From Pseudomonadota bacterium (GTDB lineage: Bacteria; Pseudomonadota; Alphaproteobacteria; Rhizobiales; Beijerinckiaceae), in assembly GCA_021813805.1 (NCBI GenBank), contig JAKAJL010000005.1:57330-121329 (forward strand): 64,000 bases of DNA, read 5' to 3'. Positions within the stretch are counted from its first letter, which is position 1. Every line of letters begins with the position of its first letter. Made by a program: the position numbers and the translations under genes. The notes beneath the pieces were generated by a model. The model was not told where the DNA came from, did not search any database, and was given only the letters and a program-made list of their open reading frames with translations. Below are positions 59,062 through 62,412 of this stretch, piece after piece.

Positions 59062-59637
59062 TTACTTGCCCGCTTCGTCCAGCGCCTTTTTCAGCGTGAA
59101 GGCGCCGCGCAGGTCGCCGAGCTTGAAGCCCGTCGCCTGATCCTTGGGGTAAAGCTGGGCGATCTTTTGTTTCAGCTCCGGCGCGACATTCAGGCCGTGG
59201 CAGGTCAGGCACATTTCCCCGGTCGGAATCGCCTTCATAAAGCGGAAGGTCTTGCCGCCCTTGTCCTCGACCGTCGCGGCGCTGACGAGCGTATCGGGCT
59301 TTTCGCCCTTGGCGAACCGGGCGGCGAAACCCTCCATGACCTTGCGCTCGTAATCATCCGGCGCGGAGGCGGCGTTGCGCGGCTTCAGACTGGTCCGGCC
59401 GATCGACCAACCGCTGCTCTTCGACAGATCGGCGGCGATTTTCGGCGCCTGCCTGTTGCAGATGTCCAGCGCGCCGAGTGGCCCCCCCTTGGCCATGGCG
59501 CCGCTTATCGCCGCCTTCAACTCCTTGGCGTATTCGGCCGTCAGTTCCGCCGCCCGCGCCTTGAGCGCCGCTTCGTCGGCGACAGCCGTTCCGCACAGAA
59601 GGAGGAACCCAAGTCCCGCCACGACACCCTTGAACAT
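59062..59637 (-). CDS. DUF3365 (Tll0287-like) monoheme cytochrome c
   Basis: 191 aa from the ATG at 59637 (MFKGVVAGLGFLLLCGTAVA), with ggagg six bases upstream. Signal peptide, then helical DUF3365 core: LTAEYAKELKAAISGAMAKG, ALDICNRQAPKIAADLSKSS, RTSLKPRNAASAPDDYERKV. One heme motif CLTCHG near residue 150, so a periplasmic monoheme cytochrome. It diverges from the octaheme cytochrome with a 288-bp shared intergenic region, so it may belong to the same electron chain. Confidence 0.9.
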   Translation of the reverse strand: MFKGVVAGLGFLLLCGTAVADEAALKARAAELTAEYAKELKAAISGAMAKGGPLGALDICNRQAPKIAADLSKSSGWSIGRTSLKPRNAASAPDDYERKVMEGFAARFAKGEKPDTLVSAATVEDKGGKTFRFMKAIPTGEMCLTCHGLNVAPELKQKIAQLYPKDQATGFKLGDLRGAFTLKKALDEAGK

Positions 59638-59925
59638 GAAAGCCTCCATAAAGCTATACTATATGTATATCTTATTTTTCGTACTTGCGGCAAGGGGCCC
59701 GCCGTCGGCGCCAAATCCACTGAAAAAAAAGCGCCGGATTCAACTCAATTCACGAGAGATTGCGCCGCGACGAAACGCCGCAGGTGGCGTTGGGCGGCTT
59801 CTATGGATTTGACAAAAGGCGCAATAAACATTCATAAAGTTTATAACTTAATGCTAGCCAGGGGTCGGCGCGCCGGGATGATGGCCGATTGATCGCCCAT
59901 CCGGCGAGGAGGCATCGAAACGAAA
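59638..59925. other. AT-rich divergent promoter region, DUF3365 / octaheme cytochrome
   Basis: 288 bp with AT-rich patches at both ends (near 59650-59685 and 59810-59860), in contrast to the flanks. It should drive both genes. No full FNR/FixK box (TTGAT-N4-ATCAA) was found, so the signal is unknown. Confidence 0.5.
59809..59837 (+). promoter_or_regulatory. Possible promoter for the octaheme cytochrome
   Basis: TTGACA at 59809-59814, a 17-bp spacer, then TCATAA at 59832-59837 (four of six matches to the -10 consensus), about 90 bp before the ATG. Confidence 0.4.
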
Positions 59926-61623
59926 ATGACGGCGCGCGCGCGATATATCACTTCGGCTGCCTTGACTCTGTGCCTGGCGATGAGCGGCGCGCGCGCGCAG
60001 GAAAAATTCCAGACCACGGATTCGCCGCCGCCGGCCAAATATCAGAAGATGGAGGCCCCGCCTCCTCCGCCGCCGCCGGTCCTGAACCAGGCCTCCGGGG
60101 TCAGGTTGAGCGAGCCGGCCGACCACTCCAAGTTCGAAGCGCTGAAAGGCCCCTTCGCGGATAGCGCGGCCGTCACCAAGGCTTGCGCAACCTGCCATAC
60201 CGACGCCGAGGCCCATATCAAGAAGACGATCCACTGGACCTGGAACTATGTCAATCCGCGCACCGGCCAGCATCTCGGCAAAGAAAACGTCATCAACAAT
60301 TTCTGCACCAACGCCAAGGACAACGAGGGCATGTGCGGCGTCTGCCATATCGGCAATGGCGTGAAGCCCGGCGAGGAATACGCCTTCAACAAGCAGACCA
60401 GCGTCGATTGCCTCGTCTGCCACGATCGCACGGGCAAATATTACCGCCTGCCGCCGACGCGCGGCAATTCGGCCTGCGCCGCCATGTTCGAGGGCCGCGA
60501 CCCGATCAATTTCACCGAAGTCGCGCAGCATGTCGGCCTGCCGGGCCGCGAGAATTGCGGAACCTGCCATTTCAACGGCGGCGGCGGCGATGGCGTCAAG
60601 CATGGCGACCTCGATTCGTCGCTGATCCGCCCAAGCAAGGCGCTCGACGTGCATATGTCGGAACAGGGGCAGAATTTCGCCTGTTCCGAATGCCACCTCT
60701 CGCAACATCACGAGATCGCTGGCAGCCGCTACGACATGATCGCCAAGGACGAAGGCGGAACCGGCAAGCCCGGCCTGCGCCGCGACGTCGCGACCTGCGA
60801 ATCCTGCCACGGCGCCACACCCCATCCCAAGCCCAGCCTGATCGGCTATCAACTCGACGCCCACGCCCAGCGCCTCGCCTGCCAGACCTGCCATGTTCCA
60901 AAAATGGCGCGCGGCGGCGTCGCCACCATCACCGACTGGGACTGGAGCACCGCCGGCAAGCTTTATAACGGCGCGGGCTATTACGAGGAAGAATACACCC
61001 AGGGGAACGGCGAGAAGCGCCACACCTACTGGTCGATCAAGGGCGATTTCAAATGGGGCGAGAACCTCGTCCCGACCTATAAATGGTTCAACGGCGAGAT
61101 GATCTACACGCTCGCCGACACAAAGATCGGCGACAAGAAGGCCGTCACGCCGATCAACGAGCCGCAGGGCGGTTGGATGGACCCCAAGTCGCGCATCTGG
61201 CCGTTCAAGGAAATGCACACCAACGTGCCCTATGACGCAGGGAACAAAACTCTCGTCTTCAACCACCTGTGGGGCGCCGACAAGACCGCGTTCTGGGGCA
61301 ATTTCAACATCAAGAAGGCGATCGCCGCCGGCATGGAGATCGAACACCGGCCCTTCTCCGGCGAGATCGGCTTCCTGAAGACCGTCTCCAACTGGCCAAT
61401 CACCCATATGGTCGCGCCCAAGGAGGACGCGGTGAAATGCGGCGAATGCCATGCGCAAAAGAGCCGTCTCGCCAATGTGCCCGGCGTCTATATGCCCGGC
61501 CACACCCGCTTTCCCTGGATGGATTTTCTCGGTTTGGCGGGGGTCGGTCTGACCTTGGCCGGCGTCGCGGTCCACGGCGGCCTGCGCATCGCCCTGACCA
61601 AGAAGCACAAGGAAGACGCGTGA
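59926..61623 (+). CDS. Octaheme tetrathionate-reductase-family cytochrome c with C-terminal membrane anchor
   Basis: 565 aa. Signal peptide ending near ARAQ, then a Pro-rich segment, then eight CXXCH heme motifs in this order: CATCH, CGVCH, CLVCH, CGTCH, CSECH, CESCH, CQTCH and CGECH (about residues 87, 137, 162, 211, 253, 291, 319, 505). The large gap before heme 8 holds a non-heme region (YWSIKGDFKWGENLVPTYKW). A single helix near residues 528-552 ends in basic residues, anchoring it to the membrane. Octaheme tetrathionate reductases (OTR) can also reduce nitrite and hydroxylamine in vitro; the substrate here is not known. It overlaps its cytochrome b partner by one base. Confidence 0.95.
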   Translation: MTARARYITSAALTLCLAMSGARAQEKFQTTDSPPPAKYQKMEAPPPPPPPVLNQASGVRLSEPADHSKFEALKGPFADSAAVTKACATCHTDAEAHIKKTIHWTWNYVNPRTGQHLGKENVINNFCTNAKDNEGMCGVCHIGNGVKPGEEYAFNKQTSVDCLVCHDRTGKYYRLPPTRGNSACAAMFEGRDPINFTEVAQHVGLPGRENCGTCHFNGGGGDGVKHGDLDSSLIRPSKALDVHMSEQGQNFACSECHLSQHHEIAGSRYDMIAKDEGGTGKPGLRRDVATCESCHGATPHPKPSLIGYQLDAHAQRLACQTCHVPKMARGGVATITDWDWSTAGKLYNGAGYYEEEYTQGNGEKRHTYWSIKGDFKWGENLVPTYKWFNGEMIYTLADTKIGDKKAVTPINEPQGGWMDPKSRIWPFKEMHTNVPYDAGNKTLVFNHLWGADKTAFWGNFNIKKAIAAGMEIEHRPFSGEIGFLKTVSNWPITHMVAPKEDAVKCGECHAQKSRLANVPGVYMPGHTRFPWMDFLGLAGVGLTLAGVAVHGGLRIALTKKHKEDA

Positions 61624-62312
61624 TGACCGCCGTCACGACCAACGACCTTCTGGGCCAGGACGGGTCCAAGCGCACGGTGATGATCTACAGCCGCTATGAG
61701 CGGTTCTGGCACTGGTCTCAGGCGGCGTTGATCCTCATCCTCGCCTTCACCGGCTTTGCCGTCCACGGCCTCATTCCGCTGCCCTACAGGACAGCTGCCC
61801 AGATCCATTCCTATGCGGCGATCGCCTTGATCGCGCTGTGGGCCTTCACCACCTTCTGGCATTTCACCACCGGACAGTGGCGGCAATATCTGCCGAAGCT
61901 GGCGAGCCTGCCGGCGATCCTGAAATTCTATGCGTGGGGCATCCTCGCCGGCGCGCCGCATCCCTATACCAAGACGCTGAAACGCAAGCAGAACGCGCTC
62001 CAGTCCCTGGCCTATCTCTGGTTCATGGTCATCATCGGCCCGGCGTTATGGTCGTCCGGCATCGTCTATCTGACCTATCCTCTGTGGGCGAAAATAGCGG
62101 CGGGAACCATCGCCTTGCCGGTCGTCGCCTTCGTTCATCTTGCCGCAGCTTATCTGATCACCATTTTCGTCATTATTCACATTTATATGACGACGACCGG
62201 CAAAACGCCGCTCCACTATGTCAGGACGATGATCACCGGCTATGACACGATCCCATTGTCGAAGGCCGAGGCGGCCTATCTCGCCGAGGACGAACCGGGG
62301 CGTCTGAAATGA
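61623..62312 (+). CDS. Membrane cytochrome b partner of the octaheme cytochrome
   Basis: 229 aa from the ATG at 61623. Four to five helices with heme-ligand His in YERFWHWSQAALILI, GFAVHGLIPL, QIHSYAAIALIALWAFTTFW and ..VHLAAAYLITIFVIIHIYM. This is the thiosulfate-reductase/hydrogenase cytochrome b type (b561-like, PF01292). It would oxidise quinol and feed the octaheme cytochrome (or run in reverse), giving a quinol-linked respiratory module. The TGATG overlap means coupled translation. A strong terminator follows. Confidence 0.93.
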   Translation: MTAVTTNDLLGQDGSKRTVMIYSRYERFWHWSQAALILILAFTGFAVHGLIPLPYRTAAQIHSYAAIALIALWAFTTFWHFTTGQWRQYLPKLASLPAILKFYAWGILAGAPHPYTKTLKRKQNALQSLAYLWFMVIIGPALWSSGIVYLTYPLWAKIAAGTIALPVVAFVHLAAAYLITIFVIIHIYMTTTGKTPLHYVRTMITGYDTIPLSKAEAAYLAEDEPGRLK

Positions 62313-62373: not shown

Positions 62374-62412
62374 GAGGACATTCCCTCCCCCAGGGAATGT
62401 CCTCTTTTTTTT
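62374..62412 (+). terminator. Terminator of the octaheme cytochrome operon
   Basis: Perfect 13-base stem gaggacattccct/agggaatgtcctc with a ccccc loop, followed by eight T residues, 61 bp after the cytochrome b stop. One of the strongest terminators in the window. Confidence 0.95.

Follow-up and report, generated by a model that had tools for sequence, protein, structure and literature searches.

An octaheme tetrathionate reductase-family cytochrome and its membrane cytochrome b as a probable quinol-linked reductase with a candidate RegR-type site and a recurrent small heme-protein neighbor

The locus described here most likely encodes a redox-regulated, quinol-linked periplasmic reductase. 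It lies within a 64,000-nucleotide stretch of a Beijerinckiaceae genome (the window) and consists of an octaheme tetrathionate reductase family cytochrome c (OTR), a membrane cytochrome b and a divergently transcribed mono-heme DUF3365 protein (Table 1). We favor, with some confidence, a reading in which a quinol-linked OTR-cytochrome b reductase is placed under RegA/RegR-type control, with DUF3365 as its probable small redox partner. The structure of OTR was solved in 2004, and the physiological role of the enzyme has been open ever since. The locus offers three direct handles on that role, namely a candidate regulator site, a cytochrome b as electron donor and a small heme protein as recurrent neighbor, and it adds DUF3365 and the redox-regulator site as new partners, both open to test, to what is an ordinary respiratory enzyme.

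Table 1. Features of the OTR locus, with positions counted along the window.
Feature	Position	Strand	Basis
DUF3365 protein, stand-alone sCache_heme (Tll0287-like, PF11845), 195 aa, signal peptide	59062-59649	-	PF11845
Divergent DUF3365/OTR intergenic region, 276 bp, AT-richer	59650-59925		GC
Predicted RegR-type box GCGGCGTTTCGTCGC, perfect match to consensus GNGRCRTTNNGNCGC	59767-59781	-	sequence match
OTR, octaheme tetrathionate reductase family cytochrome c, 565 aa, signal peptide, 8 CXXCH	59926-61623	+	TIGR04315
OTR Lys225 codon	60598-60600	+	equivalent to Lys153 of 1SP3; 81/81 OTR rows
OTR C-terminal hydrophobic membrane helix, residues about 531-549, then KKHK	61516-61572	+	hydropathy
Membrane cytochrome b, PF01292 Ni_hydr_CYTB / b561 type, 229 aa	61623-62312	+	PF01292
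Terminator-like hairpin with T tract, 3' of cytochrome b	62374-62404	+	2 sites in scanned stretch, 0.9 expected

The octaheme protein matches TIGR04315 with 558.7 bits (cut-off 375) over 440 of 440 positions, and PDB entry 1SP3 with an E-value of 9.1e-88. It has CXXCH motifs at residues 87, 137, 162, 211, 253, 291, 319 and 505, which line up with all eight heme motifs of 1SP3, and each is kept in 79-81 of 81 homologues. We take Cys64, Asp150 and Lys153 of 1SP3 to line the active site, with Lys153 as the distal ligand of the active-site heme; all three are retained in the window OTR and are widely kept among the 81 homologues (78, 76 and 81, respectively). The N-terminus carries a signal sequence, as judged by eye. 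The C-terminal hydrophobic helix recurs in 71 of the 81 homologues, and the ten that lack it include three OTRs of family f119, which likewise lack cytochrome b.

Downstream, the OTR stop codon (TGA, 61621-61623) and the cytochrome b start codon (ATG, 61623-61625) overlap by one base. The earlier note had pointed to this overlap, to the eight CXXCH motifs and to the C-terminal helix, and we found each of them in place. We surveyed OTR genes across GTDB genomes in an order sample and a phylum sample, which together hold about 80 OTR loci; a scan of named genomes with a single sequence had given 6 loci. Cytochrome b is present at 75 of 78 loci from the two samples, and the three exceptions all belong to one family, so that the OTR-cytochrome b neighborhood is indeed conserved in relatives. 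At three loci the two genes form a single open frame, and these fusions provide direct evidence that OTR and cytochrome b work together. The two proteins thus constitute one module. As separate observations, tandem duplications of the OTR-cytochrome b pair occur in genus g111 (L065 7410-12729, L075 7225-12632 and L064 6805-12087), with one OTR copy in L064 split into two frames.

The cytochrome b scores 73.8 bits against PF01292 (cut-off 30.1), and His30, His62, His172 and His186 are kept in 75-77 of 77 aligned rows. Its AlphaFold model (pLDDT 91.3) finds its best PDB match in 1kqf_C, which is FdnI, the subunit through which formate dehydrogenase N reacts with quinone. Since the protein falls below the equivalog cut-offs for PhsC (100 against 204 bits), the hydrogenase subunit HyaC (36 against 121.5) and FdnI (27.5 against 115.9), we do not file it as a subunit of any of these enzymes. 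Near-universal adjacency, gene fusions, the FdnI-like fold and the conserved histidines together bear out the proposal of the earlier note that a membrane-anchored OTR is served by its own quinol-linked cytochrome b. In the mechanism proposed here, for which we infer the direction of electron flow, the substrate, the binding of a regulator and the role of DUF3365, OTR and cytochrome b would together make up a respiratory complex of the cytoplasmic membrane that is linked to quinol. Electrons would travel from quinol through the di-heme, FdnI-like cytochrome b to the octaheme OTR, which would be anchored by its own C-terminal helix and would use its Lys-ligated heme to reduce a small substrate in the periplasm.

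A variant of this module is found in a ten-row OTR clade (families f79, f85, f90, f106 and f107), in which the cytochrome b carries a response-regulator receiver domain at its C-terminus. Pfam recognizes the domain (PF00072) at eight of these loci (L143 7218-8285, L146 4358-5386, L148 6277-7335, L153 1839-4538, L155 2985-5837, L156 8699-9823, L157 6310-7350 and L158 6673-9108), and at L149 (1-1008), where a contig end interrupts the gene, it is seen by sequence. OTR, cytochrome b and receiver make up one polypeptide at L153, L155 and L158. Judged from these gene structures, the OTR-cytochrome b module may be able to couple to two-component signaling; the window cytochrome b is without a receiver domain. 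At two further loci, a long frame beside OTR (L136, 5142-7397) or overlapping it (L151, 7765-11418) combines a cytochrome b match with seven CXXCH motifs, and could represent a cytochrome b-multiheme fusion.

The region between DUF3365 and OTR has a GC content of 0.50 at 59580-59859, compared with about 0.6-0.67 in its surroundings, and is partly conserved in two congeners that share the locus. It contains a perfect match, not remarked on in the earlier note, to the published RegR consensus, GNGRCRTTNNGNCGC (PMC5506826), and a RegR-type box also lies between DUF3365 and OTR in the own-genus genomes G010 and G007. Sites of RegA, PrrA and RegR are degenerate and unlike one another between species (PMC5506826). 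The 44 alphaproteobacterial OTR loci examined, 671 kb in all, contain nine perfect RegR boxes. Seven of these fall in the interval from 300 bp upstream of an OTR start to 100 bp within the gene, where 0.25 would be expected; with 200 shuffled motifs the count at OTR starts never rose above one, and sites with one mismatch are enriched there too (9 versus 2.4). The boxes at OTR starts come from four lineages: the window's own genus, G193 with G349, G026, and G365 (Blastochloris sulfoviridis). Our choice of motif was prompted by a conserved block in the window's genus, after which the consensus was checked and the enrichment computed. The independent part of the enrichment test is therefore provided by the other three lineages. 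We found no perfect RegR box upstream of DUF3365 genes that are unlinked to OTR, which indicates that the box does not belong to DUF3365 as such. In the mechanism we favor, a RegA/RegR-type redox regulator would set expression of the locus through the predicted box. RegR is reportedly a regulator of denitrification genes in Bradyrhizobium, a finding attributed to Torres et al. in 2014. The titles and abstracts of the literature searched yielded no paper linking RegR to OTR, and the RegR box at OTR and the fusion of cytochrome b to a receiver are the new elements here.

Other signals in and around the locus were also considered. A candidate FNR-type site in the intergenic region, TTG-N10-CAA, noticed by eye, was rejected for its wrong spacing. 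A scan for sigma-70 promoters returned one weak site (59631-59660, plus strand), no more than expected by chance. The genes that flank the locus are unrelated to it, encoding a PCuAC copper chaperone, a class II glutamine amidotransferase and an Mrp-type ATPase.

The earlier note had placed a mono-heme DUF3365 gene divergently across an AT-richer region from OTR, where we find it with its single CXXCH, and had tied the two genes together by inference. DUF3365 adjoins OTR in nine genomes from at least four lineages among the roughly 80 OTR loci, in differing gene order: divergent in the own-genus genomes G000, G010 and G007, downstream in the same direction in G266, upstream in the same direction in four f81 genomes, and 3.7 kb upstream in G614. 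It could be argued that this link is accidental, that OTR and cytochrome b are the whole system and that DUF3365 is a chance neighbor with its own promoter and function. The small number of linked genomes favors such a reading, as does the modest co-occurrence of the two genes at genome level (21/41 versus 106/357, p 0.007, not tree-corrected), and most genomes that have both keep them apart. Against it, about 0.08 DUF3365 neighbors within 5 kb of OTR would be expected by chance, compared with at least four lineages seen. The linked genes also have separate origins on the DUF3365 tree, where the G266 copy groups with copies of its own family from OTR-less genomes, the own-genus copies fall beside those of G026 and G365, and the f81 copies are set off from the rest. 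We therefore regard an accidental link as rather doubtful.

On the OTR tree, seven of the eight placed OTRs with a DUF3365 neighbor belong to one OTR clade. In the order sample, a PF11845 gene is present in 11 of 12 genomes of this clade plus its sister pair, while of the 29 remaining OTR genomes 10 have one (p 0.0014, not tree-corrected). When the neighbors of unlinked DUF3365 genes were compared, no common partner was recognized. The DUF3365-OTR link is real in a subset of genomes and is no general rule: the association drawn in the earlier note holds as a repeated pairing, but DUF3365 is absent beside OTR at most loci. The pairing across at least four lineages is nevertheless better evidence for the link than the earlier note had. 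The f81 genes (L141 8753-9346, L144 4141-4752, L145 2469-3098 and L147 6734-7306) encode proteins with lipobox-like N-termini, such as LTGC, a feature in which the window protein differs, and the f81 operons run on into a triheme cytochrome c.

The host genome (G000) encodes NarG (2167 bits) and SoxB (875 bits), as well as cytochrome d1 family genes on the same contig, of which the best is NirS-like and the others are perhaps the related NirF or NirN. Searches of the same genome gave no match for NrfA and nothing above the cut-off for NirK, and a photosynthetic reaction center was absent. With NarG, cd1-type genes and SoxB all in one genome, nitrogen-oxide and sulfur substrates are both possible. 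A reading of OTR as the sole nitrite reductase of this host is not borne out, given the cd1-type (NirS-like) genes, which could already deal with nitrite. In this nitrate-reducing host our first choice of substrate would be a nitrogen oxide, such as nitrite or hydroxylamine, and the alternative a sulfur compound, either tetrathionate or another sulfane sulfur.

OTR keeps different company in other clades. Distant loci of the same phylum (L127, L131, L132, L135 and L152) lie near sulfide:quinone oxidoreductase-like, persulfide dioxygenase-like, rhodanese or YeeE-type genes, and at L135 a CsoR-family repressor adjoins DUF3365. At three further loci an ArrA/ArxA-like molybdoenzyme directly follows OTR and cytochrome b (L093 1930-4488, L074 6331-8889 and L154 2671-5253). 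The L093 enzyme scores 1100 bits against NF041714, for which the cut-off is 1600, and the L154 enzyme is accompanied by an ArrB-like Fe-S subunit; the literature searched contained no paper with both arxA and an octaheme protein. Since OTR stands near sulfur genes or an ArrA/ArxA-like molybdoenzyme in other clades, its substrate may vary by clade. These surroundings, together with SoxB in the host genome, lend some weight to the reverse direction of electron flow, in which OTR and cytochrome b would take electrons from thiosulfate, sulfane sulfur or hydroxylamine in the periplasm and deliver them to the quinone pool, and in the one clade the module could be the quinone link of the molybdoenzyme. 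However, the window neighborhood holds no sulfur gene, none was recognized in the window's OTR clade, and in published work OTR acts as a reductase in vitro (PMC4484225). We consider the oxidative direction unlikely and retain the quinol-linked reductase as our working model.

The DUF3365 protein scores 88.5 bits against PF11845 (cut-off 24.1), and its AlphaFold model (pLDDT 90.5) has Tll0287 (5b82) as best PDB match, with an E-value of 9.6e-10. It carries one heme c motif, C147-L-T-C150-H151, with Cys64 as a candidate axial ligand; Cys64 and the CXXCH are invariant in 25 of 25 sequences. A recent preprint has redefined the family as sCache_heme and reports redox-like properties for a stand-alone member with an axial Cys, a type said to bind NO weakly, and sensor-like NO binding for a member attached to a signaling domain (PMC12889525). 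By analogy, we infer that the window DUF3365 is Cys/His-ligated and may serve a redox role rather than NO sensing. In the quinol-linked reductase model it would be a periplasmic mono-heme protein with Cys/His ligation that recurs as a neighbor and most probably acts as a small redox partner. A role as sensor, in which the Cache-fold heme domain would report NO or the redox state to the OTR complex, seems very improbable to us: sCache_heme domains attached to signaling modules do bind NO like sensors (PMC12889525), and a distant OTR clade has its cytochrome b fused to a receiver, but the window DUF3365 is of the stand-alone, weakly NO-binding type and has no output domain, and its neighboring cytochrome b has no receiver.

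Several known systems share parts of this arrangement. The window OTR has the heme motif order and the Lys153, Cys64 and Asp150 residues of Shewanella oneidensis OTR (1SP3; TIGR04315). The Shewanella enzyme is periplasmic and receives its electrons from the carrier STC, which is fed by CymA (PMC4484225), whereas the window OTR has a C-terminal membrane helix and a cytochrome b of its own. The cytochrome b has PF01292 and its histidine pattern in common with the subunits FdnI, HyaC and PhsC, FdnI being the best fold match. Their partner is a molybdoenzyme or a hydrogenase, while here it is an octaheme cytochrome. DUF3365 shares its fold, CXXCH and axial Cys with Tll0287 and the stand-alone sCache_heme proteins (PF11845; PMC12889525), but is divergently linked to OTR, unlike those known proteins; no link of DUF3365 or sCache_heme to OTR was found in the literature searched. 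The pairing of OTR with cytochrome b is itself already known, including its quinone-linked reading: an excerpt of one study describes an Otr and cytochrome b561 cluster in Ignavibacteriae Ch128a and proposes a quinone-linked terminal reductase (PMC7509429). The window shows the same pairing, with DUF3365 and the RegR box as elements that go unmentioned in that excerpt.
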